Assembly: GCA_012270795.1 (NCBI GenBank)
Contig: JAAXHO010000035.1
Span: forward strand, 1 to 54,154
Reading direction: 5' to 3'
DNA from: Candidatus Poribacteria bacterium
GTDB lineage: Bacteria; Poribacteria; WGA-4E; WGA-3G
DNA: 54,154 nucleotides
The position numbers and the translations under genes were made by a program. Below the pieces are notes generated by a model that saw nothing but the letters and a program-made list of their open reading frames with translations, did not search any database and was not told the DNA's origin. Shown here in pieces: positions 1-54,154 of this stretch. Position 1 is the stretch's first letter; the number at the start of each line of letters is the position of its first letter.

Positions 1-24
1 AATTAACTGGCACAAGTCGTTAAT

Positions 25-64
25 ATACCATTTCCGTAGGTCGGATACCATTTCCGTAGGTCGG
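25..64. repeat. 20-bp tandem repeat, two copies
   Basis: The unit ATACCATTTCCGTAGGTCGG occurs twice head to tail at 25-44 and 45-64 with no mismatch. The second copy runs directly into the start of the GTAGGTCGGGTAGAGC palindromic family. No gene overlaps it. Confidence 0.85.
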
Positions 65-124
65 GTAGAGCGAAACGAAACCCATAAATCAACGGTATGA
101 ATGCCATTTAGGCATTCCCCGACT
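55..124. repeat. GTAGGTCGGG repeat interrupted by a 35-bp palindromic element
   Basis: The GTAGGTCGGGTAGAGC...GAAACCC family member that starts at 55 is cut after GAAACCC. A 35-bp element at 86-120 (AAATCAACGGTATGAATGCC, short loop, GGCATTCCCC) follows, and the expected GAC resumes after it. Intact members of the host family lie at 722-747 and 768-793. The inserted element recurs at 41041-41074 and, reversed, at about 14419-14452. Confidence 0.7.
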
Positions 125-440
125 ACGAAGTAATGTAAGATTATCATATAAAAATGTTATTACCAGTATTGCTTTTCTTTTTCCATTCCTATTTGAGCCT
201 CATTTATCCCGCCCCCCAACCCTCCGCAAGCGAGAAGAGATGGATCCCCTGATAAGAGGGAAGGGACCTCCTAGCGATAGTGTATGGAAGAGTGGGTTTC
301 TTCCGAGCCAAAACTTTACACCCGCTATCAGAATAAACTTGACTGTATAGACAAAATAGGTTACTATTAAACTAAACAAGTTCTGTATTTTGCATATTTG
401 GAGAATAGGAATAAAATAGTGGATTGTCTACTCTTACATT
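125..440. other. non-coding stretch with one possible promoter
   Basis: No credible gene is seen here. A possible sigma70 promoter reads TTGACT at 339-344, a 17-nt spacer, and TACTAT at 362-367. It points towards the oxidoreductase, but with about 490 nt of repeat-filled leader between them, so the link is uncertain. The rest is unremarkable mixed-composition sequence. Confidence 0.35.
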
Positions 441-800
441 GTAGGTCGGGTAGAGCTTGTGAAACCCATAGGTGTCAATTTAAGGGATAAATCCGTTGTG
501 GGAGTGTCTTCAGTCCCGTAGGGACGATATGTTTATAGAAAACGTTGAATACCTGCTCTTGAGTTCCGTAGGAACGATATGTAGAAAAATATGTTATTGG
601 TATCCACATATCGTCCCTACGGGACTAAAGACAAACGGACATCTCATATCTATAAACATAGCGTCCCTACGGGACTAAAGAGGATTTCTGCATCTGAAAA
701 TTCCTTAAGTTTACACCTATGGGGTAGAGCGCAGCGAAACCCGACATTAATTCAAATAGTTAGAATCATGTCGGGTTTCGCTGCGCTCTACCCGACCTAC
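441..800. repeat. composite of nested palindromic repeats
   Basis: Several inverted repeats are nested. The outer arms (CCCATAGGTGTCAATTTAAG type) lie at about 466-485 and 704-722. Inside is a GTCCCGTAGGGACGATATG pair at 513-538 and 650-675, and a further pair at 563-582 and 606-626. To the right, perfect 26-bp arms of the GGGTAGAGCGCAGCGAAACC family lie at 722-747 and 768-793 around a 20-nt loop. Related copies occur at 38780-38867 and 49221-49365. Short open frames here are by-products of the repeats. Confidence 0.8.
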
Positions 801-855
801 AAGCTAGGTGTTGACACAGCAATAGGTTTTATTTTCTGAATAGAAGTAAATTTGA

Positions 856-2046
856 ATGAATACCCAACAGAGAGTCTATAGGGTTGCCATATTAGGTTGC
901 CGTAGTCGTGGTACTTCCGCAGCAAAAGCGTATCATGCACACCCACGCACAGAGATCGTCGCACTTTGTGACCTGCTTCAGGATAGGTTAGATGCACTCG
1001 GTAAAGTCGTAGACGTTTCAACGCATTTCACCGATTTAGATGAGATGATCCAGCAGACGAAACCTGATATTGTCGCAATACCGACAGCAACCAATTTACA
1101 CTATCCGCTTTGCATGAGTGTGCTTGAACATGGTGTAAACATTGAAGTAGAAAAACCGCTCTGTGTGGATTTAGTGCAAGCAGATGCGATTATGGCAAAA
1201 GCAAGGGAGAAAAACGCGCGTGTGGTTGTGCATCATCAACGCCGCGTTAGTCCCACTATGCAAGCAGTTGCCAAAGCACTTGATGAAGGGAAAATCGGTG
1301 AACTGCGTTATATCTATGCTTGTGGCAAGGGTTATTACGCTGGTTACGGTTTGATGAACATCGGCACACATGTCGTCAACAATATGCTGCGTTTCGGTGG
1401 ACACTGTAAAAGCATTATGACACAAGCAACGGCAGGTGGGCGCGAACTAACACCAGAGGACGTTCTGCCTTCACCCGCGGGTATGGGTACAGTCGCAGCA
1501 GAATATACCACTTCTACACTTCAATTTGATGGAAATGTTACAGGCACACTCATTCAACATCGTTTTCCTAAAGTTAGTAGTGATGCTTATGTCCTTGAAC
1601 TCTACGGTAGTGAAGGCAGATTGCTTTGGTCGGAATTGAAAGGTTCATGGTGGTTACCCACACCGCATTTTATTCCTGATGGCAATCTTGACCGATGGGA
1701 AAAACTTACACCCATCTATCCTGAACATTTTGATAATAGTAAAGGGGCAAACGCAGACGACTACTGCCTTGTTGACGAATATGTGAATGCACTGGACGAA
1801 AACAGAGACCACGAATGCAGTGGTGAAGAGGGACGACATGTAATGGAGATATTGATGGGAGTCTTTGAGTCTGCTATCTATGGAACGCGAGTTGAACTTC
1901 CTCAGAAAAATAGAGAACACCCCTTATTACGATGGCGTAAGGAAAATGGACTTGGTCCGCTTAAAGAGATGCCACGTGATTATGGTTCTTGGTTATCGTT
2001 AGAAAATGAACGACTGTATGAAAATTATGGTGAATTATTAAAATAA
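856..2046 (+). CDS. Gfo/Idh/MocA family NAD(P)-dependent oxidoreductase
   Basis: This 396-residue protein fits a cytoplasmic sugar or polyol dehydrogenase of the Gfo/Idh/MocA family. The N-terminal Rossmann fold starts at residue 8 (VAILGCRSRG) and ends in the family EKP motif at residues 99-101, whose lysine is a substrate-side catalytic residue in this family. The C-terminal half (about 125-370) is the alpha/beta substrate-binding domain. Length is normal. It opens a same-strand run with a PhyH dioxygenase and an enolase-superfamily dehydratase, suggesting degradation of a sugar acid or polyol. The substrate cannot be read from the sequence. The ATG has no strong ribosome-binding site, but no alternative start is better. 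Confidence 0.88.
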   Translation: MNTQQRVYRVAILGCRSRGTSAAKAYHAHPRTEIVALCDLLQDRLDALGKVVDVSTHFTDLDEMIQQTKPDIVAIPTATNLHYPLCMSVLEHGVNIEVEKPLCVDLVQADAIMAKAREKNARVVVHHQRRVSPTMQAVAKALDEGKIGELRYIYACGKGYYAGYGLMNIGTHVVNNMLRFGGHCKSIMTQATAGGRELTPEDVLPSPAGMGTVAAEYTTSTLQFDGNVTGTLIQHRFPKVSSDAYVLELYGSEGRLLWSELKGSWWLPTPHFIPDGNLDRWEKLTPIYPEHFDNSKGANADDYCLVDEYVNALDENRDHECSGEEGRHVMEILMGVFESAIYGTRVELPQKNREHPLLRWRKENGLGPLKEMPRDYGSWLSLENERLYENYGELLK

Positions 2047-2055
2047 TTATACACC

Positions 2056-2147
2056 TCTTCTGTAGGAGCGACCTTTGGTCGCGACCTTGCGATATCTTCT
2101 GTAGGAGCGACCTTTGGTCGCGACCAAAGGTCGCTCCTACAGAAGAT
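2056..2147. repeat. 54-bp perfect palindrome preceded by a partial copy
   Basis: Positions 2094-2147 form a perfect loopless palindrome centred on GGTCGCGACC, with arms ATCTTCTGTAGGAGCGACCT and onward. A 30-bp direct copy of the left arm sits just upstream at 2057-2086. The same GTAGGAGCGACC family occurs at 41025-41102. It lies between the oxidoreductase and PhyH genes and could act as a hairpin in the transcript. Confidence 0.9.
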
Positions 2148-2173
2148 GGGTAATCAAAAAGTGAGAGAAAATT

Positions 2174-2980
2174 ATGCCAAATCCTACAACAAATGCTGAC
2201 AATTTACCACCGATTCCACTTACAGAAGAACAACGTTTTCTCTTTGATACACGCGGATGGCTTCTGTTTCCCGGTGTGTTAAGTGAAACGGAAACTAAAG
2301 AGATGCGTGAATTCTGTTATCAACTAAATCAGGACCCGCAATCAATACCTGAACAGCATCGTTCATCTATCGGCGGTCCATTAGAATCGCTGACCGACCA
2401 TCCCGTTGTACTCGGATATATGAACGAGTTTTTGACATCAGGATACGCTAATGAGAACTGCTACGGTTTTCGTTTGGAAGGTACTTTCCTTACAATTCGT
2501 GGTAACGGACATGACAACTTCCGCCCACACGGAGGCCGCGGCATGCTCAATTTTCCCGGCAATTCACACACCTACCATCTACATCACGACAGAGCACACA
2601 GCGGTTTGACGCGCTTTGTCTGGGAACTCAATCCTGTGAAAGAAGGTGGCGGCGGCACAATGTTCCTGACGGGTAGTCACAAAGGTGCGTTTCCTGCACC
2701 AAAGTCAACAGCAGACCGAAATTCACCATTATGGGAGGACTATAGTTGTCCTGCTGGTTCCATGCTGGTTTTCACAGAAGCAATTACGCATACGGGTGCA
2801 AAATGGACAGATGAAGAATATGACCGTGTTGCTATCTTTAACTGCTATAACACAGTCGGCAACAAATGGCACAGATGGGAACCACACCCAAAACATGTTG
2901 AAGAGATGCCTTTCAAACGAAAAACACTTTTTCGTCCTGTTTATTGTCAAGACAATGTGCCGAATTTAGATGCCGGTTAG
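2174..2980 (+). CDS. phytanoyl-CoA dioxygenase (PhyH) family protein
   Basis: This 268-residue protein is a probable Fe(II)/2-oxoglutarate-dependent oxygenase. The jelly-roll core runs from about residue 20 to 235. The iron-binding H-x-D is visible at H137/D139 (HLHHD) and the distal histidine at H206 (ITHTGAKW). Length is typical of the many bacterial PhyH paralogues acting on unknown small molecules. It lies between a Gfo/Idh/MocA oxidoreductase and an enolase-superfamily enzyme on the same strand, consistent with a catabolic or modification pathway. The substrate is unknown. Confidence 0.88.
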   Translation: MPNPTTNADNLPPIPLTEEQRFLFDTRGWLLFPGVLSETETKEMREFCYQLNQDPQSIPEQHRSSIGGPLESLTDHPVVLGYMNEFLTSGYANENCYGFRLEGTFLTIRGNGHDNFRPHGGRGMLNFPGNSHTYHLHHDRAHSGLTRFVWELNPVKEGGGGTMFLTGSHKGAFPAPKSTADRNSPLWEDYSCPAGSMLVFTEAITHTGAKWTDEEYDRVAIFNCYNTVGNKWHRWEPHPKHVEEMPFKRKTLFRPVYCQDNVPNLDAG

Positions 2981-3008
2981 TTAATAGTATTTTTGAGGAT
3001 TTGATTCT

Positions 3009-4142
3009 ATGAAAATTACAAATGTCAAATCGTTCGTTTCATCATCAGGACATTTTTTCGTCAAGGTAGAAACCGATGCAGGTATATACGGTGTCGGTGA
3101 AGGTGGATTGAGACGGCGTGGTCCTGCATTAGCAGAAGTTGTGCGATCTTTTGAACCTATTCTCATCGGTGCTAATCCGTTTCAGACTGAACATCTTTGG
3201 CAAGTCATGTTTCGCGGTGGCTTTTTCCCTGGCGGTGTCGTTCAATCTGCGGCTGTCAGTGCAGTAGACATAGCATTGTGGGACATTAAGGGAAAAGCAC
3301 TGAATGTTCCTGTCTATGAACTGTTGGGCGGACGCACGAGGGACAAAGTTGTCTGCTATCCACACAATGGTGGAGGTTCTATTGAAGCACTCGTAGAGAG
3401 TTGTCGTAAAACACACGATGCTGGATGGAAATTTGCACGATGGGGTTTGGCAGATGGATCAGACACAGGGACGTTTGAACCCAAGCGAGCTATTCAGTAC
3501 GGCATTCAACAGGTAGAAGCAGTTCGAGAAGCATTAGGTGATGAGATAAACATTCTTGTTGATGTACATACCCGTCTTGACCCAGCAGGTAGTCTTGAGT
3601 TTTGTAAAAAGGTTGAACCCTACAATCCATTTTTTATTGAAGACCCACTGAGAAGCGAAAATCCCGCAAGTCTCAGACGGCTACGACAACAGACCTCTGT
3701 TCCAATTGCAGTCGGTGAACAATTTGACAGCAAGTGGAGTTTTCGCGAAGTGATTGAAGAAGACCTAATAGACTATTGCCGCGTTGACCTATGCATAGCA
3801 GGCGGATTGACAGAAGCACGGAAAATCGCTGGATGGTGTGAAACGCACTATATCCATCTTGCCCCACACAACCCGCTTGGTCCTGTCTCCACCGCAGCGT
3901 GTTTGCATCTCTGTTTAGCATCTTCCCTCGTTGGTGTGCAAGAACTTCCGCGTGCCCCTATGTCCTCACTGACCGATGTTTTTCCGGTTCAAGTGCCGTT
4001 TGAATCGGGTTATCTCCTGCCACCTGAATCCCCGGGACTCGGCATTGAGTTCAACGAAGATGCACTCACAAACGTGTCAAAACCAGAATACTCACCACCA
4101 GTCGGCTATCAACGTGATGACGGTTCTTATACAAACTGGTAA
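3009..4142 (+). CDS. mandelate racemase/galactonate dehydratase-like enolase-superfamily enzyme
   Basis: This 377-residue cytoplasmic enzyme has an N-terminal capping domain (about 1-115) and a barrel carrying the three metal ligands D185 (LVDVH), E211 (IEDP) and E237 (GEQ). H287 in the HNPLGP motif is the usual general base of the D-galactonate dehydratase branch. These residues suggest acid-sugar dehydration rather than racemisation, but substrate specificity is inference. It is 28 bp downstream of the PhyH gene and probably co-transcribed. A weak GAGGA lies ahead of the ATG. Confidence 0.87.
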   Translation: MKITNVKSFVSSSGHFFVKVETDAGIYGVGEGGLRRRGPALAEVVRSFEPILIGANPFQTEHLWQVMFRGGFFPGGVVQSAAVSAVDIALWDIKGKALNVPVYELLGGRTRDKVVCYPHNGGGSIEALVESCRKTHDAGWKFARWGLADGSDTGTFEPKRAIQYGIQQVEAVREALGDEINILVDVHTRLDPAGSLEFCKKVEPYNPFFIEDPLRSENPASLRRLRQQTSVPIAVGEQFDSKWSFREVIEEDLIDYCRVDLCIAGGLTEARKIAGWCETHYIHLAPHNPLGPVSTAACLHLCLASSLVGVQELPRAPMSSLTDVFPVQVPFESGYLLPPESPGLGIEFNEDALTNVSKPEYSPPVGYQRDDGSYTNW

Positions 4143-8804: not shown

Positions 8805-9509
8805 ATGCAACAAGCGAAATTAGAGGTCCAGCAAAGAAACGCTTTTGGTAAGCAAAACGCTCGCGCCATCCGACGGGCAGGGGATGTACCAGCCATCGTA
8901 TATGGACGCAAACAGGACACCGTTCCACTTAAAATAAATGAACGGATATTTAAACAGTTCCTCAGAACTTATGGCGAAAATGTAATTATAAATATGGAAG
9001 TCTCCGAAGGCACTTCAGAACCCGTTATCATAAAAGAAATTCAACGTGACCCCGTTGAAAAACAGACTCTACTCCATGCAGATTTTATTCGTATCTCGTT
9101 AGATGAACCAGTTACCTCGTCAGTTCCGATAGTATTAGTAGGAACTCCCGCTGGTGTTCAACAAGGTGGTGTTGTTGAATTTCCATTACGTACTCTAACC
9201 CTAAACTGTCTACCCGCATCAATGCCAAACGAAATAAATGTTGATGTGGCGAATATGGAAATTGGTGATATTGTCTATGTTCAAGACATAGACCTTGATG
9301 ACGAAGTAGAGGTATTAGACGAACTACAACGAATCATCGTTTCTATCAGTCAACCACGTGTCATTGTTGAAGAGGTAGAAGAAGTTGAAGAAGGTGAGGA
9401 AGGTGAAGAAGGCGCAGCTGAAGAAGGCACTACCGAAGAAGAAGATGCTGAAGAACGCGCCGAACCTGAAGTAATTTCACGAAGACGTAGAAATGACGAC
9501 GCTGAATAG
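8805..9509 (+). CDS. rplY: 50S ribosomal protein L25/Ctc (long, two-domain form)
   Basis: L25 binds 5S rRNA. Residues 1-95 form the L25 domain (AIRRAGDVPAIVYGRK) and about 100-185 the TL5/CTC C-terminal beta domain (LRTLTLNCLP, IEVDV-like strands). A highly acidic Glu-rich tail follows (about 190-225). At 234 residues this is the long Ctc form. It is followed on the same strand, after two cell-envelope genes, by pth. Confidence 0.93.
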   Translation: MQQAKLEVQQRNAFGKQNARAIRRAGDVPAIVYGRKQDTVPLKINERIFKQFLRTYGENVIINMEVSEGTSEPVIIKEIQRDPVEKQTLLHADFIRISLDEPVTSSVPIVLVGTPAGVQQGGVVEFPLRTLTLNCLPASMPNEINVDVANMEIGDIVYVQDIDLDDEVEVLDELQRIIVSISQPRVIVEEVEEVEEGEEGEEGAAEEGTTEEEDAEERAEPEVISRRRRNDDAE

Positions 9510-18319: not shown

Positions 18320-20623
18320 ATGTCAGAATACAATGTTGTCGGTCAAAAACTACCGCGCGTGGATGCTGTTGAAAAAGTTACGGGGGCTGCCCAATACGGC
18401 GCAGATGTCCATCCAGCTGGAATGCTCTACGGTAAGGTCGTTAGAAGCAAACATGCACACGCGAATATCCTCAGTATTGATACCAGTGATGCAGAAAAAC
18501 TACCCGGTGTCAGAGCGATTGTTACGCAGGAAGATGTCCCCAGTGGTAGTAGAATCTTCGCAACTGACAAGGTGTTATACTTAGGTGAACCTATTGCTGC
18601 TGTTGCAGCAACGGATCCGGATATCGCTGAAGAAGCAGCCGAACTCATCAAAATAGAATACGAAGTACTACCTGTCGTTCAGGACGTTATGGAAGCGATA
18701 AAATCAGATGCACCACGGCTACACGGGGATGCAACAAAAAACGGACCAAACCGAAGATATATCACCGCAAAAATAAAGGAACTTTCTGATAATCAGGAAG
18801 TTGATAATAACGAGGAAATTCGCAAGCTTGAAGCAGAATTAGAAAAATATTCTGATGAAATCTATTACAATATTTCTGCTGAAACCCATAATGCTGCTGG
18901 CGATGTTGAAAAAGGTTTCGCAGAATCTGACATCGTCGTTGAAGACACATACGTAATACCGCGTGTGCATCAAACCTATATGGAACCCCATGTCTCAGTC
19001 GCAAGTGCAGACTCGTCAGGAAAGGTCACCGTGTGGGCATCAACGCAAGGTCCCTTTGCAATCCGGTCTGGAATTGCTGGCAGACTCGGTATCCCTTTGA
19101 CACAAATTAACGTCATCGGAACGACTATGGGTGGAGGTTTTGGTGGACGATTCGGCGTGATTATCACACACGTACCCGCAGTGCTGCTCTCACAAAAAGC
19201 CGGACGCCCCGTGCGTGTTCAAATGACACGTGAAGAGGAATTTCTTGATGGAAGACCCGCACCCGGTTGCGTTATCAAACTCAAAACCGGCGCAACTAAA
19301 GACGGACATATCCTGGCACGACAAGCACTCGCATTCTGGGATTCTGGTTCAGTTTCCGGTGCTTCTATCGGTAGTACAATCCGTGTCCGCGGTGTCTACA
19401 AAATACCAAATATCAAAATTGACGCATACGGAGTGCATACCAACAAATCTGGTACTGCTGCGTATAGAGCACCGGGGGCACCACAAGCCATTTTCGCAGG
19501 TGAATCGCAGCTTGACGATATCGCAGAAAAGATCGGCATGGATCCTGTCAAATTCCGTCTGATGAATATGCGCGAAGAGGGAGATGCTGTTCCCGCTGGC
19601 GGAAGCGAACCGAAAGTCGGGTACAAAGAAACATTGGAAGCAGTCGCTGATGCTGCAGGTTGGTGGAATCGAGACACAGATGAAAACCAAGGTTGGGGTG
19701 TTGCTGTCGGTGATTGGACAAACGGATGCGGTCCCGGTGGCGTTTATGTGTCTGTCCACGAAGATGGTAGCGCGCGAATCTTCCACGGATCTATGGACAT
19801 CACTGGCACAGATACTGCTATCACACAAATCATCGCTGAAATCTTGACCATTCCATACAAAAACGTCACTATCCGGCGTGGAGACACAGATTCAGCTCCG
19901 TACTCCACAGGTTCAGGTGGTAGCGTTGTCACTTTTACAATGGGTAACACTGCAAAACTGGCAGCTGAAGACGCACGTAACCGCATACTTGAACTCGCTT
20001 CCGAAAGGCTCAATACAAACGCAGATAACCTTGAACTCAGAGAAGGTGCTGTCCATACAATCACAGCAGACCCTCCGAAATCCATTACATTAGGTGAATT
20101 AGCAGCGTATAGCCTGTCAACAACTGGCGGTCCAATTGTCGGTAAAGGTTCTTTTGCAAGAAAACCGAGTACCCCCGCACTTGCAGCACAAATCGCAAAG
20201 GTAGAAGTTGATCCTGACACCGGTAGAACGAGAGTGCTAAAACTTGTTGTTTCACAAGATGTCGGATTTGCTATAAATCCAATGGCAGTGGAAGGGCAAA
20301 TTGAAGGGGGTGCTGTACAAGGTTACGCATGGGCTATGATGGAAGAGATGCAATACGGTGAAAACGGAAACATCAATCCCGGATTCGTTGATTACCGTGT
20401 GCCGACATCTGCTGACCTTCCGACAGTTGAATCGGTCATCGTTGAAGTGCCCGCCGCGAACGGTCCCTACGGCGCAAAAGGTGTTGGAGAACCACCCATC
20501 ACACCCACATTAGCAACGATGGCAAATGCTGTCAGAGATGCTGTCGGTATCCGTATCACCGAACTGCCGATTAAACCTGAAAAGGTTGTTGAAGCACTGA
20601 AAAACAACGGGCACAAAACGTAG
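18320..20623 (+). CDS. molybdenum hydroxylase large subunit (CoxL/XdhA-like)
   Basis: The 767-residue molybdopterin-binding subunit carries the family motifs GGGFGGRFG (about residue 271), AYRAPGAPQ and the catalytic glutamate E724 in GAKGVGEPP. The Mo cofactor here oxidises an unknown aldehyde or heterocycle. CoxL's active-site Cys motif is not seen, arguing against true CO dehydrogenase. A Lys/Glu-rich stretch at about residues 142-188 looks like an inserted coiled-coil. AAGGAG precedes the ATG. It is separated from its FAD and Fe-S subunits by two unrelated genes. A perfect 9-bp hairpin with a TTCG loop follows the stop. Confidence 0.92.
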   Translation: MSEYNVVGQKLPRVDAVEKVTGAAQYGADVHPAGMLYGKVVRSKHAHANILSIDTSDAEKLPGVRAIVTQEDVPSGSRIFATDKVLYLGEPIAAVAATDPDIAEEAAELIKIEYEVLPVVQDVMEAIKSDAPRLHGDATKNGPNRRYITAKIKELSDNQEVDNNEEIRKLEAELEKYSDEIYYNISAETHNAAGDVEKGFAESDIVVEDTYVIPRVHQTYMEPHVSVASADSSGKVTVWASTQGPFAIRSGIAGRLGIPLTQINVIGTTMGGGFGGRFGVIITHVPAVLLSQKAGRPVRVQMTREEEFLDGRPAPGCVIKLKTGATKDGHILARQALAFWDSGSVSGASIGSTIRVRGVYKIPNIKIDAYGVHTNKSGTAAYRAPGAPQAIFAGESQLDDIAEKIGMDPVKFRLMNMREEGDAVPAGGSEPKVGYKETLEAVADAAGWWNRDTDENQGWGVAVGDWTNGCGPGGVYVSVHEDGSARIFHGSMDITGTDTAITQIIAEILTIPYKNVTIRRGDTDSAPYSTGSGGSVVTFTMGNTAKLAAEDARNRILELASERLNTNADNLELREGAVHTITADPPKSITLGELAAYSLSTTGGPIVGKGSFARKPSTPALAAQIAKVEVDPDTGRTRVLKLVVSQDVGFAINPMAVEGQIEGGAVQGYAWAMMEEMQYGENGNINPGFVDYRVPTSADLPTVESVIVEVPAANGPYGAKGVGEPPITPTLATMANAVRDAVGIRITELPIKPEKVVEALKNNGHKT

Positions 20624-45106: not shown

Positions 45107-45238
45107 CAATGACATCTAATTTAATTGAAATGGTATAGAGTGAATCGCATCGCGCCCAACTTGGCTGCACGACATGCCAATTTGGGCGTTTTGCATTGTT
45201 AGTTGAAATAACAAATCATATCAAACATGGAGATAAAT

Positions 45239-46518
45239 ATGGCAAAATCACCAAACATTTTACTCATCCTTGCAGACGATCACGGATATGGCGATATATC
45301 AGCTCATGACGGACCCTCAATTCAAACACCTGACATTGATAGGATTGCCACAGAAGGCACCCGTTTAACGCAATTTTATGCAAACTCCTCTGTATGTTCT
45401 CCAAGTCGTGCATCGCTTATGACCGGACGCTATCCTGATAGAGTCGGTGTTCCCGGTGTGATACGCACGCATGCCCAAAACAACTGGGGTTATTTTCAAC
45501 AGGACGCGATGACACTGCCTTCAATGTTGAAACAGAAAGACTATCGCACGGCACTTATCGGGAAGTGGCATTTGGGACTTGAAGATGAAAATCATCCGTG
45601 CAAACGCGGGTTTGACCATTTTCACGGTTTCCTCGGCGATATGATGGACGACTATTATACGCATCTTCGACATGGCAATAACTACATGCGGCGCGGTTTT
45701 GAAACCATTGATCCAAGGGGGCACGCCACAGACCTTTTCTCGGATTGGAGCATGGACTTTATTCGCACGCATGCACATACATCCCATCCATTTTTCCTCT
45801 ATCTCGCTTACAACGCACCGCATACACCGATCCAACCTCCTGACGACTGGATCGAACGGGTGCGAAAACGTGAACCGGATATTTCAGATCAACGCGCACG
45901 TTACATCGCTCTCGTTGAACACATGGATGCAGGTATCGGACGCGTGCTGGACTCACTTGAGGAAACAGGTCAACTCTCCAACACGCTGGTGATTTACACG
46001 TCAGACAATGGTGGTGCAATGCAAGTTGGGGCAAACAACGGTCCGCTCCGTGGACAAAAAGGACAGATGTACGAAGGTGGAATCCGAGTCCCTACATGTG
46101 CAATGTGGAAAGACCACATACCAGAGGGACACGTTACAGATCAGGTGGCAATGCTTATGGATCTTTTGCCGACAGTGTGTGAAGTCGCTGATGTTCCTGT
46201 CAAACACGAAATTGAAGGGCGTTCTATTTGGCAAACACTTCAAGGGAAAAACAGAACTTCTCTGATCGTCTGCTCTATTGGGTACGCAGAGAGGGGGGAA
46301 ATCGCTTTCACGCTCAGTGTCAACACGCAATACGACAGGGTGACATCAAGTTGCTACACAATAGTCCTTTTGAACCACTGGAACTATACGACCTATCAAG
46401 TGATCCGATGGAAGCAACTGATACCTCAAACACAAACAACAAACTTTATAGGGAAATGGGACGTTTGTTTCAGGAAGAAAAACAGAAAGCAGGAAGTGTT
46501 CCGTGGCAGAAAGGTTAA
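45239..46518 (+). pseudogene. arylsulfatase-type sulfatase with a late frameshift
   Basis: The N-terminal three-quarters is a classical sulfatase: metal site LLILADDHGYGD, formylglycine motif CSPSRAS (C53), GKWHLG and TSDNGGAM. The frame breaks near 46247-46252 in GGGAAAAACAG; read with one more A it continues NFSDRLLYWVRREGG...LELYDLSSDPMEATD...QEEKQKAG to the stop at 46518, a normal sulfatase C-terminus. Unshifted, translation runs to 46537 with an unrelated tail. There is no signal peptide, so it would act in the cytoplasm. Maturation needs a formylglycine-generating enzyme; the FGE-like proteins downstream lack its cysteines. Confidence 0.85.
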
Positions 46519-46617
46519 TTCTAAAATCTACACATAGTCTCGATTTTTGCTATCCTTTTGTGTATAAAAGGTCTCAAAAATTAAGTGAGTATCTATATAA
46601 TAAGATTTGAACTTTTT

Positions 46618-46748
46618 CATAGGCATTCCATTGTCGCAAAGGATCATCGTTGGAGGGGTTTCTAACCCCGATTTGAGATACACAGCAGCAGAAATCGGGG
46701 TTAGAAACCCCTCCAACGATGATCCTTTGCGACAATGGAATGCCTATG
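46618..46748. repeat. 57-bp perfect inverted repeat
   Basis: Arms 46618-46674 and 46692-46748 are exact reverse complements around a 17-nt loop. The inner part of each arm (TTGGAGGGGTTTCTAACCCC) recurs at 49256-49324. It lies between the broken sulfatase and the promoter of the chaperone operon. The remainder of the gap to 46852 holds that promoter. Confidence 0.95.
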
Positions 46749-46766
46749 GAAATTTTTAAGCTGCCA

Positions 46767-46795
46767 TTGACAGAGTACCTTATTCGTTGTATAAT
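46767..46795 (+). promoter_or_regulatory. perfect consensus sigma70 promoter of the grpE-like/dnaK-like operon
   Basis: TTGACA at 46767-46772, a 17-nt spacer and TATAAT at 46790-46795 match the consensus exactly. The predicted start near 46802 gives a leader of about 50 nt. No CIRCE-type inverted repeat (TTAGCACTC-N9-GAGTGCTAA) is visible, so control differs from standard heat-shock operons. Confidence 0.85.
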
Positions 46796-46852
46796 CAAAA
46801 GAGATTTGGAACTACCCCTCTAAGAAAAACTCGTTGTAAGGAGGGTTCTATT

Positions 46853-47584
46853 TTGGAAAAGCAATTGAATGAAGATGATATAAAACTAAGTGCCGATATG
46901 GACACAGATGCAGATTTAGTAAAAAAGAGTGATAATGTTGAAATGGATTCGGATACTGCAACAGACACCTCTGCACAACTGGATGATCTGGAAATGTTAC
47001 AACAAGAAGACCTGGCACAGGTAAATCAAACCTTATCTTCACTACAAGATCTGTTTGAAAAGCAGATTGCACGAAATCAGAATCAGACAGAGATGTTTGA
47101 CAAAATATATGCTGAAATGAAAGAATATAAGGAGAGTTTTCTACTTGAAGTACTTCACAAACCGATTATCCACAACCTAATCCAACTATATGATAGTTAC
47201 GGGATGCTTGAAACACAACTTGACGATATATTGAACGGAAGTGAAGAAACGCTGCCAGATGAACTCAACCAATTTCGGAAGAATTTGGAGAACTTTCGGT
47301 TTAAACTTGAAGAGGTACTATACCGCATGGATGTAACTCCCTATAAGGATTCTCTGGACACACTTGATCGGCATTTGCACAAGACGCGCAAGGTAATACC
47401 GTCAGAGGACCCACAACAGGATCAGAAAATCGCAGAAGTTCACAAAATTGGGTTTCATTGGCGAGAGAAAGTGTTCCGTCCAGAAGAGGTGACAATATTT
47501 CGGTATATTCCCGATACCCAAAAATCCGAAAACCCAATAAATGTATCTCCTTCCAATGAGAAAGGAGGCGGAATAGATGGGTAA
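46853..47584 (+). CDS. GrpE-like nucleotide exchange factor
   Basis: The product is 243 residues from TTG 46853, which sits 8 nt after GGAGG; a TTG at 46787 is in frame but inside the promoter. An acidic N-terminus is followed by a long coiled-coil (LEMLQQEDLAQVNQTLSSLQ...MFDKIYAEMKEYKE) and a GrpE-like head (LYRMDVTPY, FHWREKVFRPEEVTIFRY). In GrpE the dimeric helix and head open the Hsp70 nucleotide cleft. It overlaps the Hsp70 gene by 8 bp. It is diverged from housekeeping GrpE and is probably specific to its neighbour. Confidence 0.72.
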   Translation: MEKQLNEDDIKLSADMDTDADLVKKSDNVEMDSDTATDTSAQLDDLEMLQQEDLAQVNQTLSSLQDLFEKQIARNQNQTEMFDKIYAEMKEYKESFLLEVLHKPIIHNLIQLYDSYGMLETQLDDILNGSEETLPDELNQFRKNLENFRFKLEEVLYRMDVTPYKDSLDTLDRHLHKTRKVIPSEDPQQDQKIAEVHKIGFHWREKVFRPEEVTIFRYIPDTQKSENPINVSPSNEKGGGIDG

Positions 47585-49172
47585 AGTCGTTGGGATTGAT
47601 CTCGGAACAACATTCTCTGCAATAGCACACATCAATGAACATGGACAGGCAGAGATCATTCCAAACTTAGAAAGTGAACGTATTACACCGTCGGTTATCA
47701 TGTTTGAGGACACTCTCGTAACCGTCGGCAAAATCGCCAAGCAAAATGCCAGGGCCGTTCCCGAACAGATTGTGGAGTTTGTCAAACGGGAGATGGGTAA
47801 GTCAAAGTCAGAATACTTTCGCACGTTTGACGCAAAGAACTACTCCCCCGAAGAACTCTCCGCAATCATTTTGACAAAACTCAAGCAGGATGCCGCAACA
47901 TATCTGGGTGAAGAAATCACAGATGCTGTTATCACTGTTCCCGCCTATTTTCATGATGCGGAGCGCGAAGCAACTCGAAACGCTGGGAAAATTGCGGGGT
48001 TGAATGTCCTGCAAGTCCTCAACGAACCCACTGCCGCTGCACTTGCTTACGGTATGGACCAATTGGGTACCAACCAAAATGTGTTCGTGTTTGACCTTGG
48101 TGGTGGGACGTTTGATGTGACGATCATGAAGGTGTCAGATACTGAAATCCAGATGCTCGCTACAAACGGTGACCACAGACTCGGCGGTAAGGATTGGGAT
48201 GATAAGATCATCACGCATGTTGCGGAGATGTTTGAGATTGAACACGGTGAGAACCCGTTAGAAGACCTTCACACGTATCAAGACCTACAACTGGATGCGA
48301 TCACCGCAAAAGAATCTTTGTCATTAAGGCAGCGCGCCCTCATCGTTTGCGGATACAACGGTAAAACAACACGGGTGGAATTGACCAGAGAAAAGTTTGA
48401 ACAACTCACCGCAGACCTACTTGAAAGATGCCGTGTTTTGTGCAATGTTGTCCTTACGGAAGCAGACATGACATGGGAAAATATAGACAAAATCCTGTTG
48501 GTAGGGGGGTCAACTCGGATGCCGATGGTGCGGGAGATGATAGCCGCAAGCAGCGGTAAAGAGATCAATCCTTATGAAGTCAACCCAGATGAAGTCGTGG
48601 CAATCGGTGCTGCTATTCAGGGGACACTCCGCCAGATATCCGAAGGTGACACCGAAACAGCAGATATGCCGGAAGCTGTCATTGAAAGGTTCATCGGGCC
48701 TGACGGCGCACCAAAGGTTACCGTAACTGACGGTGCAACACATAACCTTGGACTTGTCGTCCTAAACGCACAACGCGAGCATATCATCCATGTCATGATA
48801 CCGAAAATGACGGCTGTGCCATGCGAAGTCGGAGATAAGTTTTTGACAGTAGACCATAATCAACCCTCAGCGTTGATTGAAGTCGTTCAGGGACTTGAAC
48901 AGGACCAATTCAAAGAGGAAATTGATCTCTTTGATGAATACAAATTAGGTGAATGCACGCTTGAGTTACCAACAGGTTTACCACGAGGATCTCCAATTGA
49001 AGTTATCTACAAATACAACTTGCACCAAAATCTTGAAGTGACTGCAACATCTCTCTCTGAAGATGACGCTACTGCTGTTTACGACATCTTTTCCATCATT
49101 GACAGACCGACTCTCAATGAAGAAGAGGTTGCACAGGCAAAAACTGACCTACAAGACTTAATCGTTGAATAA
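47577..49172 (+). CDS. Hsp70/DnaK-like chaperone, short form
   Basis: The 531-residue protein has an intact Hsp70 ATPase domain: phosphate loops GIDLGTTFSAIA and FDLGGGTFDVTIM, connect region VPAYFHDAERE and NEPTAAALAYG, and adenosine motif LLVGGSTRMP. After about residue 385 a beta-sandwich substrate domain is present (GATHNLGLVVLNAQ, MTAVPCEVGDKF). The helical lid and C-terminal tail of DnaK (about 638 aa) are mostly missing. It sits between a GrpE-like gene and four J-domain-like/FGE-fold genes, which points to a dedicated, non-housekeeping chaperone. Confidence 0.9.
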   Translation: MGKVVGIDLGTTFSAIAHINEHGQAEIIPNLESERITPSVIMFEDTLVTVGKIAKQNARAVPEQIVEFVKREMGKSKSEYFRTFDAKNYSPEELSAIILTKLKQDAATYLGEEITDAVITVPAYFHDAEREATRNAGKIAGLNVLQVLNEPTAAALAYGMDQLGTNQNVFVFDLGGGTFDVTIMKVSDTEIQMLATNGDHRLGGKDWDDKIITHVAEMFEIEHGENPLEDLHTYQDLQLDAITAKESLSLRQRALIVCGYNGKTTRVELTREKFEQLTADLLERCRVLCNVVLTEADMTWENIDKILLVGGSTRMPMVREMIAASSGKEINPYEVNPDEVVAIGAAIQGTLRQISEGDTETADMPEAVIERFIGPDGAPKVTVTDGATHNLGLVVLNAQREHIIHVMIPKMTAVPCEVGDKFLTVDHNQPSALIEVVQGLEQDQFKEEIDLFDEYKLGECTLELPTGLPRGSPIEVIYKYNLHQNLEVTATSLSEDDATAVYDIFSIIDRPTLNEEEVAQAKTDLQDLIVE

Positions 49173-49204: not shown

Positions 49205-49383
49205 GCAGTGTTTTTGTTTACCCATAGGTATCAATTTAAGAAATGAAACTCTTGTTGGAGGGGTTTCTAACCCCGATTTTTTGCCGTTCCATTCTGCTAT
49301 CGGGGTTAGAAACCCCTCCAACAAGAGGGAAATGGGGTAGAATAGCCCCTAAATTGACACCTATGGCAGTGTTTTTTGTTTGC
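49205..49383. repeat. composite palindrome flanked by a direct repeat
   Basis: Outer arms CCCATAGGTATCAATTTAAG (49221-49240) and its near-complement at about 49347-49365 enclose an inner pair, TTGTTGGAGGGGTTTCTAACC type, at about 49253-49277 and 49302-49326. The whole is bracketed by a direct repeat, GCAGTGTTTTTGTTT at 49205-49219 and GCAGTGTTTTTTGTTT at about 49366-49381. That pattern resembles a target-site duplication. Confidence 0.75.
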
Positions 49384-49424: not shown

Positions 49425-50732
49425 ATGGCCAGTCGCGATGAATTTATTGCGATAGTTGACGCACTCAAAATTGCTTCACCCACTATAACCGATGAACAAC
49501 GAAAGGGTTTTTTGCGGTTAGGGGTACAGCAGCATGGACTCACTGTTGATGAGGCAACATATATCCTCAATGCAGCAGGACTGACTATCGGTGAACGGAT
49601 TGATTACTTTGAGGTCTTGGGATTCTCTATAGATGAAATTCAAAGATTAGACGAATTGGCAATCGTGAACCGTGTAGAGATTGCTCACAAAAAACTTTAT
49701 GCTGCTTCGTTGCGTGCAGGAGGACGACCGCGTGCAGATGGTAGGTCAGAAGAGCAGTGGCGGACACTCCTAAATCAAGCAAGAGATGTACTTGTAGACG
49801 CAGAAAAGCGATAGGAACATATCGCACTGCTGCAAAACAGTGCCATTCCTTCCATTGAATCGTTATCAGAGATAGATAATACTACTTCTGAACAGACACA
49901 ATCGGTTTTGATGGAGCAGCATGCTCCCTCTATTCCATTAGAAAAAGATGACATGGTTCTCATTCCTGCGGGTGAATTCCAAATGGGAAGTGATGACAGA
50001 GATGCGTTCAACGATGAAAAACCCATACATACGGTCTTTGTAGATGCTTTTTATATGGATAAATATCCAGTAACAAATGCACAATTTAAAAACTTTCTTA
50101 ATGAGAATCCGCAATGGCGTAAGCCGTTGAAATGGTACGAGTCGGGAAAGATTGATATTGCCAAGATCGCCAGAAAATATCACGACGGAGAACACTTGAA
50201 ACATTGGAATAGATACGTTTATCTAAGAAAAGAAGCCGATCATCCGGTAACTTGGGTCAGTTGGTATGCCGCAATGGCATACTCACAGTGGGCGGGCAAA
50301 CGGCTTCCGACCGAAGCAGAATGGGAAAAGGCGGCACGTGGTGGACTGACAGGTGAGAAATATCCATGGGGAAGTACGATTGATGCAAGTTATCTAAATT
50401 TTGACGCAAATATCAGTAAAACAACAGCAGTAGGCAAATACCCACCCAACAATTATGGTCTGTATGATATGATAGGCAATGTGTATGAATGGTGTCTGGA
50501 CAAATGGAATAAGTACTTTTATGTGCAGTCCCCACAGGATAATCCGATTGCAGGTGATAGTATATTATATGTTGTTGAAAACTTTACTGATATAAAATCA
50601 TCACGGGTTATGCGCGGCGGTTCCTGTGTGAGTACGCCTCAGAACGTTAGGGTGGCATATCGTTCGCGCAATACACCAAGATATACATGTTTCAACATTG
50701 GGTTCCGTTGTGTGATGCCAGTTAAACCTTGA
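49425..50732 (+). pseudogene. J-like/FGE-fold protein, copy 1, interrupted by in-frame TAG
   Basis: The frame from 49425 encodes the N-terminal helical and J-like region (DYFEVLGFSIDEIQ...HKKLYAASLRAGG...EEQWRTLLNQARDVLVDAEKR) and stops at TAG 49812-49814. The same frame continues without shift through EHIALLQNSAIPSIE to an FGE/SUMF1-like domain (MVLIPAGEFQMGSDD...RLPTEAEWEKAARGG...NVYEWCLDKW...RVMRGGSC...GFRCVMP), ending at 50732. Copy 3 has CAG where copy 1 has TAG, so a single C-to-T change split the gene. The FGE part could restart at ATG 49908. Confidence 0.85.
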
Positions 50733-50788: not shown

Positions 50789-52015
50789 ATGTCTAAACGC
50801 GATGAATATATAATCCTCATTAACGAATTTAAAACAGTTTCACCTACAATTTCTGATGAACAACGAAAAGGGTTGCTCCGTAGAGCTGTGCAACAGTTCG
50901 GCATTACCATTGATGATGCAGCGGATATTCTAAATGCATCCGGATTAGTGATAGGTAAACAAGAGAATTACTTTGAGATTCTGGGACTTTCAACTGAAGA
51001 GGCCCAAAGTTTAGATGAATTGGCTATCACGAAACGCGTAGAAACTGCACATAAAAACTTGTACAGTGCATCATTGCAGGCAGGTGGACGACCGCGTGCA
51101 GATGGCAGGTCAGAAGAGCAGTGGCGGATACTATTGAATCAAGCACGCGATGTGTTAATAGACCCAAAAAAACGGAACGCACACCTTGCAACAGTACAAC
51201 ATACTGAAGAAACATTAGTAGACACTCCCTCAGCCCCTTTACATCTTGACAGCGACATAGAACTTATTCCCGCAGGTGAATTTGAAATGGGTGGTAGTGA
51301 TAACGAAGCATTTAATGACGAACAACCTGTACATACGGTCTTTGTGGATGCATTCTATATGGACAAATATCCTGTAACAAATGAGCAGTTTAAAGCATTC
51401 GTTGATGCAAACCCGCAATGGAACAAACCCCAAGGATTAAGTAAATTTCTACCTGCAAAATACCACGATGGATACCTCCTCCATCATTGGCATGGGAACA
51501 ACTATTTGGAAGGGCAAGCGAACCATCCGGTAGTTCACATTAGCTGGTATGCAGCCATGGCTTATGCAGAATGGGTGGGCAAGCGTCTACCAACAGAAGC
51601 AGAATGGGAAAAAGCAGCACGGGGAGGCTTAGCTGTTAAGAAGTATCCATGGGGAGATCTTATAGATACCACAAAGGCAAACTTCGGCAAAAATATCGGA
51701 TCCACGACACCAATAGGAGAGTATTCACCAAACGAGTTTGGTTTATATGATATGGCGGGGAATGTGTGGGAATGGTGCCTTGATGAATGGGATGGACGCT
51801 TCTATGCATCTTCACCAAGTGAAAACCCAATCGCAGGTGACAGTATTAGCAAGATAGTAAATAACTATAGGGATTCTAAAGCACTACGTTTACTGCGTGG
51901 CGGTTCTTGGTACAATAAGGTGCAGGACATACGAACCGCAAAACGTTCTGCCGCGCTACCGACTTATGCAAATTCTAACATCGGTTTTCGTTGTGTAAAA
52001 CCTATTACGACCTAA
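50789..52015 (+). CDS. J-like/FGE-fold fusion protein, copy 2
   Basis: The product is 408 residues from ATG 50789; an upstream in-frame ATG (50729) overlaps copy 1. Residues 1-50 are helical (DEQRKGLLRRAVQQFG). Residues 50-125 resemble a J-domain (NYFEILGLSTEEAQ, TAHKNLYSASLQAGG, EEQWRILLNQARDVLIDPKKRNAHL), with RADG where HPD is expected. Residues 150-408 form an FGE/SUMF1-like fold (IELIPAGEFEMGGSD, FYMDKYPVTNEQF, RLPTEAEWEKAARGG, NVWEWCLDEWDG, RLLRGGSWYN, GFRCVKP). The Cys pair used by FGE for catalysis is absent. No signal peptide, so it is cytoplasmic. Confidence 0.85.
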   Translation: MSKRDEYIILINEFKTVSPTISDEQRKGLLRRAVQQFGITIDDAADILNASGLVIGKQENYFEILGLSTEEAQSLDELAITKRVETAHKNLYSASLQAGGRPRADGRSEEQWRILLNQARDVLIDPKKRNAHLATVQHTEETLVDTPSAPLHLDSDIELIPAGEFEMGGSDNEAFNDEQPVHTVFVDAFYMDKYPVTNEQFKAFVDANPQWNKPQGLSKFLPAKYHDGYLLHHWHGNNYLEGQANHPVVHISWYAAMAYAEWVGKRLPTEAEWEKAARGGLAVKKYPWGDLIDTTKANFGKNIGSTTPIGEYSPNEFGLYDMAGNVWEWCLDEWDGRFYASSPSENPIAGDSISKIVNNYRDSKALRLLRGGSWYNKVQDIRTAKRSAALPTYANSNIGFRCVKPITT

Positions 52016-52066: not shown

Positions 52067-53353
52067 ATGCGCGAACACGAAGCTTTTGTTGCCTTCATCA
52101 ATCAACTCAAAATTGCTTCACCCACTATAACTGACGAACAACGTAAAGGCTTTTTGCGGTTAGGGGTTCAGCAGCACGGTCTCACTATTAATGAAGCAAC
52201 GTATATCCTCAATGCGGCAGGATTGACTATCGGTGAACAGATAAATTACTTTGAAGTGTTAGGTTTCTCTATTGATGAAATTCAAGGATTAGATGAAGTG
52301 GCAATCGCGAACCTTGTAGAGATTGCTCACAAAAAACTTTATGCTGCATCGTTGCGTGCAGGTGGTCGTCCGCGTACAGATGGTAAAACAGAAGAACAGT
52401 GGAGAACAATTCTCAATCAAGCACGAGATGTACTTATAGACGTAGAAAAGCGACAGGAACATATCACACTGCTGCAAAACAGTGTTACTCCTTCCATTGA
52501 AACGTTATCAGAGATAGGTAATACCACTCCTGAACAGACACAATCTGTTTCGGAGAAACAGCAAACCCCCTCTATTCCATTAGAAAAAGACGACATGGTT
52601 CTTATTCCTGCGGGTGAATTTCAAATGGGAGGTGAAGACGAAGAAGCAAACGATGACGAACAGCCAGTACATACCGTTTTTCTTGACGCGTTTTTTATAG
52701 ATAAATATCCAGTGACTAATTCAAAATTTAAGGAATTTGTTGATGCAAATCCAAGTTGGCGTAATCTTGGCTGGATGCCAAGTTCTTATATTAGAAAATA
52801 TAGAGATAATGACTATTTGAAAAACTGGCATAAAGGGAACTATCCAAAAGGAACAGGTGACCGTCCAGTGAATTGGGTCAGTTGGTACGCAGCGATGGCA
52901 TACTCACAGTGGGTAGGCAAACGATTGCCTACGGAAGCAGAATGGGAAAAGGCCGCAAGAGGAGGGTTGATAGGACAAAGATATCCATGGGGTAATGAAA
53001 TTATTGAACGCAACGCAAATTTTGGAAAACAGGTCGGGGAAACAACACCTATAGGAAAGTACCCACCGAACGGATACGGTATATGTGACATTACTGGCAA
53101 TGTAAGTGAATGGTGCCTTGATGAGTGGGATAGAGAATTTTATATATCTTCCGGAAGTCATAATCCCGTTTCTGGTGGTAGTATAGAGAATATCTCAAAA
53201 GACTTTACAAAAACTAAAACATCACGTGTGATACGGGGTGGTTCGTGGTACTCAGCGGAACATGAGGTGCGTGTCTCAAGTCGGGGCTGGTTAACGCCTT
53301 GGAAAACAAACAGCATCGTTGGTTTTCGTTGTGTAAAACCTATAAGGACATAA
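52067..53353 (+). CDS. J-like/FGE-fold fusion protein, copy 3
   Basis: The 428-residue protein starts at ATG 52067; an upstream in-frame start at 52049 is possible. The J-like region is YFEVLGFSIDEIQGLDEVAI...HKKLYAASLRAGG...EEQWRTILNQARDVLIDVEKRQEH, with RTDG in place of HPD. A 55-residue linker leads to the FGE-like domain (MVLIPAGEFQMGGED, FFIDKYPVTNSKF, RLPTEAEWEKAARGG, NVSEWCLDEWDR, RVIRGGSWYS, GFRCVKP). It is closest to copy 1 in the N-terminal region and shares the linker with it. The FGE catalytic cysteines are absent. Confidence 0.87.
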   Translation: MREHEAFVAFINQLKIASPTITDEQRKGFLRLGVQQHGLTINEATYILNAAGLTIGEQINYFEVLGFSIDEIQGLDEVAIANLVEIAHKKLYAASLRAGGRPRTDGKTEEQWRTILNQARDVLIDVEKRQEHITLLQNSVTPSIETLSEIGNTTPEQTQSVSEKQQTPSIPLEKDDMVLIPAGEFQMGGEDEEANDDEQPVHTVFLDAFFIDKYPVTNSKFKEFVDANPSWRNLGWMPSSYIRKYRDNDYLKNWHKGNYPKGTGDRPVNWVSWYAAMAYSQWVGKRLPTEAEWEKAARGGLIGQRYPWGNEIIERNANFGKQVGETTPIGKYPPNGYGICDITGNVSEWCLDEWDREFYISSGSHNPVSGGSIENISKDFTKTKTSRVIRGGSWYSAEHEVRVSSRGWLTPWKTNSIVGFRCVKPIRT

Positions 53354-53404: not shown

Positions 53405-54136
53405 ATGCGCGAACGCGATGCATTTATTACCTTCATTAACGAGTTCAAGACAGTTTCACCGACTATAACCGATCAACAACGCATAGGTCTTCTGCAACGC
53501 GCAGTACAGCAACACGGTCTTTCGGTTGATGAGGCATCTGAAATTCTGAATGCTGCGGAAATAATTGTTGGTGAAAAGGATAACTATTTTGAGGTATTGG
53601 ACATTTCAATTGAACAGATTCATGAACTTGATGATCAAACAATCGTGAACATTGTTGAAGCAGCGCACGACAAACACTATAGAACATCGTTGACAGCAGG
53701 GGCACGCATACGTCCCGATGGTAAAACAGAAGAACAGTGGCGAACACTCCTAAATCAAGCACGAGATACCCTAATAGACCCACAAAAACGAAACGCATAT
53801 TTGGATACATTTCTGTCTGAAGGAGACACTTATGAGACACCCGCTGATGATATTCAACAAATAAATACCGAACCAAACACTGCAGAACCAATAATTTCAG
53901 AGGAAGGCACAGCACCAACAAGGCAAAATGTTAATGATGTTACTCCAGAATCAATCCAGTTAATTACCGATGTACCAGACAATATGACACTTATTCCAGC
54001 AGGAGAATTTCGGATGGGGAGCAATGAGGAAGAAGCAAACGATGACGAACAGCCAGTACATACCGTTTTTCTTGATGCATTTCTTATAGATAAATATCCA
54101 GTGACAAACGAGCAATACAAAAAATTTAAGCAATGA
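53405..54136 (+). CDS. J-like/FGE-fold fusion protein, copy 4 (3' part beyond or broken at window edge)
   Basis: The first 243 residues include the helical start (DQQRIGLLQRAVQQHG) and the J-like region (NYFEVLDISIEQIHELDD, HDKHYRTSLTAGA, RPDGKTEEQWRTLLNQARDTLIDPQKRNAYLD). This copy keeps P-D of HPD. A linker and the start of the FGE-like domain (MTLIPAGEFRMGSNEEEAND, FLIDKYPVTNEQYKKF) follow. A TGA at 54134-54136 ends the frame early; the same frame beyond it is open for the last 18 bases. Whether this is a real truncation cannot be decided inside the window. Confidence 0.7.
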   Translation: MRERDAFITFINEFKTVSPTITDQQRIGLLQRAVQQHGLSVDEASEILNAAEIIVGEKDNYFEVLDISIEQIHELDDQTIVNIVEAAHDKHYRTSLTAGARIRPDGKTEEQWRTLLNQARDTLIDPQKRNAYLDTFLSEGDTYETPADDIQQINTEPNTAEPIISEEGTAPTRQNVNDVTPESIQLITDVPDNMTLIPAGEFRMGSNEEEANDDEQPVHTVFLDAFLIDKYPVTNEQYKKFKQ

Positions 54137-54154
54137 GTAGATACGGGATTCTGG

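Follow-up and report, generated by a model that had tools for sequence, protein, structure and literature searches.

An in-frame TAG codon in one copy of a tandem J-like/FGE-fold gene array of a Candidatus Poribacteria genome

The first copy of a tandem gene array in a sponge-associated member of Candidatus Poribacteria is interrupted by an in-frame TAG codon at a site where its closest relative and a neighboring copy carry glutamine codons. We consider it likely that a nonsense change has recently disabled this copy, a redundant member of the array, in an ordinary case of copy loss. The TAG itself matters little, as it adds a further broken copy to an array that is redundant, and the loss shows that array copies are dispensable and turn over. 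The more interesting object is the array: Hsp70-linked J proteins without an HPD motif and with interchangeable FGE-fold or WD40 parts.

The window—the whole stretch of DNA analyzed, 54,154 nucleotides—is an entire contig (C116) of a 5.18-Mb genome assembled in 298 contigs. From position 46787, a GrpE-like gene, an Hsp70-like gene, and the array follow one another on the same strand (Table 1). Each array gene encodes an N-terminal J-like domain of about 137 residues and an FGE-fold domain (PF03781). The array probably continues on a second contig (C289, positions 1–3514), because the ends of both contigs carry the same 21-base sequence. The genome has this sequence exactly four times, at a contig end in every case (in the window and at C289:4–24, C139:4–24, and C295:17795–17815), and it is probably the terminal repeat of an unassembled multicopy insertion element, one of which would lie inside array copy 4. 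A collapsed element of this kind within copy 4 would explain the shared contig ends; the contigs were kept separate.

Table 1. Features of the GrpE–Hsp70–array locus in the window
Feature	Position	Strand	Evidence
GrpE-like gene	46787–47584	+	PF01025, E 2.7e-11
Hsp70-like gene	47577–49172	+	PF00012, E 2.4e-118; 81–98% identical gene upstream of the array in 16/16 relatives examined
Copy 1, J-like portion, 129 codons up to the TAG	49425–49811	+	J-domain fold of the homologous part of copy 3
In-frame TAG, copy 1 codon 130	49812–49814	+	Copy 3 and the G013 orthologue both read glutamine here
Copy 1, remaining frame (linker and FGE-fold domain)	49815–50732	+	Pfam match at about 49944–50714; a separate start is not supported
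Copy 2, intact J-like/FGE-fold gene	50789–52015	+	ORF and Pfam
Copy 3, intact J-like/FGE-fold gene	52067–53353	+	ORF and Pfam
Copy 4, FGE-fold part cut by an IS-like end at the contig edge	53405–54136	+	
21-base sequence, probable insertion element end	54131–54151	-	Four occurrences in the genome, all at contig ends

The TAG codon of copy 1 and its decoding

The letters around the stop read GCA GAA AAG CGA TAG GAA CAT ATC. TAG is in frame with the ATG at 49425, and in a codon alignment the frame stays open past it until the stop at 50730–50732, in agreement with the initial annotation, which had described the frame as unbroken on both sides. At the same site copy 3 reads CGA CAG GAA and the orthologue in the closest relative (G013) reads CGA CAA GAA. 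Because both carry glutamine codons, it appears that a glutamine was replaced by a stop in copy 1. The nonsense change that had been proposed by comparison with CAG in copy 3 is thus borne out as an in-frame stop against a sense codon, and the suggested check of related strains for CAG turned up, in the relative G013, CAA, another glutamine codon. No genome of the same species was found, and within the genus G013 is the only genome with a close orthologue.

The stop had also been placed exactly between the two domains, which is wrong. It lies inside the last predicted J-like helix (residues 126–136 in the copy 3 model), ten codons ahead of a low-confidence linker (residues 140–169 in the same model) and 44 codons before the Pfam FGE match, which starts at residue 13 of the 49908 ORF, equivalent to codon 174. 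Among the 43 sites of copy 1 at which a single transition creates a nonsense codon, five fall within codons 130–167, so a position such as this one is expected by chance about one time in nine.

Is TAG read as a stop in this genome? A gene for RF1 is present (profile match over its cut-off), and no CUA anticodon was found among the tRNAs (46 RF00005 matches, with ARAGORN run on the loci covering them). Of the 92 intact array copies, 11 terminate in TAG, as do 10 of 44 nonoverlapping window ORFs of at least 150 codons. These include the genes for an L25/TL5 ribosomal protein (8805–9509) and a molybdopterin-binding protein (18320–20623), as had been pointed out when TAG was first described as a normal stop elsewhere in the window. 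Together, RF1, the missing CUA tRNA, and the common use of TAG as a terminal stop indicate that translation most likely ends at codon 130 of copy 1; recoding, judged unlikely from the outset, was rejected on the same grounds. In a separate observation, ARAGORN called a tRNA-Sec with anticodon tca at C275:2932–3020; selenoprotein synthesis in this genome is possible.

Broken copies, the age of the stop, and competing explanations

How often are array copies broken? We examined 22 stretches from 17 genomes (20 from 16 relatives, plus the window and C289), leaving out five further genomes with J-like matches and some extra matches in the genomes used. The 100 J rows obtained correspond to about 99 copies, one frameshifted copy giving two rows. 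A total of 92 rows are open beyond 400 codons, counting as open the fourth copy of G013, whose match to the J query starts only at residue 20, and eight rows (seven copies) are broken. The broken frames end at codons 130 (copy 1, TAG), 244 (insertion end), 116 (frameshift on C289), 252 (TAG in G013), 116 (frameshift in G011), 61 (TAG in G011), and 121 (frameshift in G017). Breaks are sporadic, affecting 7 of about 99 copies at various places and in various ways, and only the break in copy 1 both leaves the frame intact and lies close to where the J-like domain ends. In this genome three of the six array copies are broken: copy 1, copy 4 (cut by an insertion end, with a frame change near C289:170), and copy 5 (a frameshift near C289:1055). 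The G013 copy with TAG at codon 252 has its orthologue on C289, which is independently broken by a frameshift.

Nonsense pseudogenes are familiar from tandem paralogue arrays under birth-and-death evolution. The array resembles such cases in that one copy has a nonsense codon, others are intact, and more are broken by frameshift and insertion. It differs in that copy 1 so far shows no sign of relaxed selection after the stop, as would be expected if the stop were very young. Between this genome and G013, dN/dS of copy 1 is 0.12 before the TAG and 0.15–0.16 after it; the matching parts of the intact copy 2 give 0.16 for the first and 0.12–0.13 for the second. With three outgroups, amino acid changes after the TAG on the branches to this genome and to G013 number 18 versus 11, 12 versus 15, and 12 versus 14, none of these differences being significant, and copy 1 retains all 42 of the 42 most conserved columns after the TAG. 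The choice of outgroup sets the upper 95% bound for neutrality at 14, 17, or 49% of the branch. As the sequence after the TAG shows no sign of decay, the stop should be recent, still segregating, or an error in the consensus, or else the second part continues to be produced; these numbers fit all four alike.

Under the loss that we favor, the glutamine codon of copy 1 would recently have become TAG, and the allele could be fixed in the population or still segregating. RF1 would end translation there, as its gene and the use of TAG suggest, and copy 1 would yield at most a 129-residue J-like fragment without the FGE-fold part. On the copy 3 model, this product is predicted to lose most of the last J helix. 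The array, which has further copies and undergoes copy gain and loss, would tolerate this, copies 4 and 5 being broken in other ways in the assembly. The intact G013 orthologue, RF1 with no CUA tRNA found, the use of TAG as a terminal stop, the sporadic breaks, the three broken copies out of six in this genome, the broken sulfatase gene beside the array, and the absence of a good ribosome-binding site at a second start all speak for this explanation. The undecayed sequence after the TAG speaks against it, being just as compatible with an error or with continued production of the second part as with a very young stop. We regard it as rather unlikely that the TAG is a consensus or assembly error, or an allele of a minor strain mixed into the MAG, with the real gene intact. 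The codon is known from one contig, and this genome has, besides two further broken array copies, five sulfatase genes with changed frames. One of them is next to the array (45227–46537) and is frameshifted after residue 343, with a conserved C-terminal piece in another frame (46228–46518), while G013 and other relatives have both pieces in a single frame. Four more are split into two frames (on C11, C144, C238, and C278), three of them near the same PF00884 profile position (about 185–200), and in another MAG (G012) the conserved Hsp70 is frameshifted. Part of this broken-gene background may be assembly error. However, a lone C-to-T substitution is an ordinary mutation, and neither the insertion ends nor the substitution plus deletion of copy 5 resembles a simple homopolymer error.

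Could both halves of copy 1 still be in use? The initial annotation had envisaged that a J-like protein would be released and possibly also a free FGE-fold protein, and we find such a split into two working products, the latter starting near 49908–49911, improbable and the claim unsupported. In favor of a split, the frame after the TAG is open and conserved, it contains in-frame start codons at 49908 (TTG) and 49911 (ATG), and this ATG is absent from the G013 orthologue and from copy 3. Against it, predicted anti-Shine–Dalgarno pairing is weak, at 0.4 kcal/mol for 49908, −2.4 for 49911, and −1.1 for 49953, whereas the medians for 81 array starts and 1503 internal start codons are −3.5 and −2.9; the pairing is worse at 49908 than at 93% of the 81 true array starts and worse at 49911 than at about 83%. 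The TAG also falls within the last predicted J helix, and among the roughly 99 copies there is no J-only gene without a break, every short J frame being the product of a nonsense codon, a frameshift, or an insertion. Stops "inside" many copies had suggested a recurring split, which we rejected: nearly all of them lie just upstream of the true start. We judge it highly improbable that the TAG is read through or recoded in the array family and that the full-length protein continues to be produced. Each of the family's three in-frame nonsense codons is a TAG with an intact frame after it: that of copy 1, codon 252 of array copy 3 in G013, and codon 61 of a G011 copy (L059, position 13736). The chance of this is about 0.05 (an estimate from mutational opportunity, TAG accounting for 1677 of 4098 stop-creating transitions and 3844 of 14262 stop-creating transversions, that assumes two transitions and one transversion), a weak result on which we retain a small probability of read-through. 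Against it stand the decoding evidence above—RF1, no CUA anticodon, and terminal TAG in array copies and long window ORFs alike—and the fact that TAG is the stop most readily reached by a single transition (1677 of 4098). These isolated TAGs, one in each of three species and all followed by an intact frame, are the basis of a yet more speculative and extremely improbable idea, that amber codons are tolerated switches in chaperone-linked arrays, copies alternating between a J-only decoy and a full J-sensor through weak read-through or back-and-forth mutation.

The array proteins, their distribution, and related systems

What kind of proteins does the array encode? The J-like part resembles DnaJ/Hsp40 J-domain proteins in its fold and in its adjoining Hsp70 and GrpE genes: in the copy 3 model, residues of about 57–137 fold as a J domain (best Z 10.0, rmsd 2.1, 68 residues aligned), and nearly all rows of the structure comparison are J domains. 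It differs from them in an extra N-terminal helical part, seen in the same model, and in lacking the HPD motif in all 96 J-like domains; the motif R-x-D-G is found in 94 of the 96. Pfam DnaJ gave no match over its cut-off for this domain, a PDB sequence search with the J-like profile returned one match (E 0.66) that we took as chance, and no viral relatives were found among 44 pattern stretches. The second part resembles the FGE/SUMF1 family (PF03781) in matching the whole domain (E 2e-66, residues 13–269 of the 49908 ORF), with PDB matches to FGE at E of about 1e-37; in the full-length model pLDDT is below 50 over residues 300–417, and its FGE-fold part was set aside. Unlike active FGE, none of 92 array copies has the cysteine-pair motif, which we take to be the active-site pair, so that a free FGE-fold piece is unlikely to act as an FGE enzyme.

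In 18 of 20 arrays the copies resemble one another more closely in the J-like part than in the FGE-fold part (copies without both parts dropped), and five J proteins run through Pfam gave WD40 repeats in two, an FGE-fold domain in one, and no confident domain in two. These proteins may combine a common J adaptor, docking on Hsp70, with varying sensor parts. In intact copies the J-like domain would dock on the neighboring Hsp70, and the FGE-fold or WD40 part would bind a ligand; if both activities were shown, the array would be a chaperone-run sensor system.

How widely is the arrangement distributed? The J-like domain was found in 22 of 59 genomes: 15 of 18 in the genus (this genome included), 7 of 17 in the rest of the family, and 0 of 24 outside the family. 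In named genomes, every array relative (34 loci) belongs to Candidatus Poribacteria. Each of the 17 genomes with examined stretches has one array downstream of an Hsp70, and 12 of the 22 stretches yielded a GrpE. GrpE–Hsp70 with tandem HPD-less J genes bearing FGE-fold or, in relatives, WD40 parts was found here only in one poribacterial family. The limited literature searched yielded no earlier description of a poribacterial J/FGE array.

The nearest published theme, in the part of PMC7159879 available to us, is the HSP70–GrpE–DnaJ subset of the GAP1-N2 conflict systems. FGS (FGE-fold) domains are effector or sensor parts in related systems (PMC7159879), and FGE-fold domains are named as C-type-lectin-fold, ligand-binding parts in the available portions of that source and of PMC10907252. 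Like that subset, the present locus brings together HSP70, GrpE, and a J domain fused to another module in one neighborhood; unlike it, the J/FGE-fold genes here form tandem arrays. Poribacteria go unmentioned in PMC7159879. The available part of PMC3909097 describes WD40 as abundant and does not contain the words FGE and sulfatase. A known defense system was rejected as a candidate, with a single, weak PADLOC match (E 0.0005), to the Hsp70, as was diversification of the FGE-fold genes by a DGR, since the array contigs lack a reverse transcriptase (neither C116 nor C289 carries any of the genome's three RVT_1 matches). In the spacer between the Hsp70 gene and copy 1, we also observed a near-perfect hairpin sequence (GGAGGGGTTTCTAACCCCGAT...) at 49243–49330, possibly a small mobile or repeat element, and a similar motif lies upstream of GrpE at about 46530–46800.
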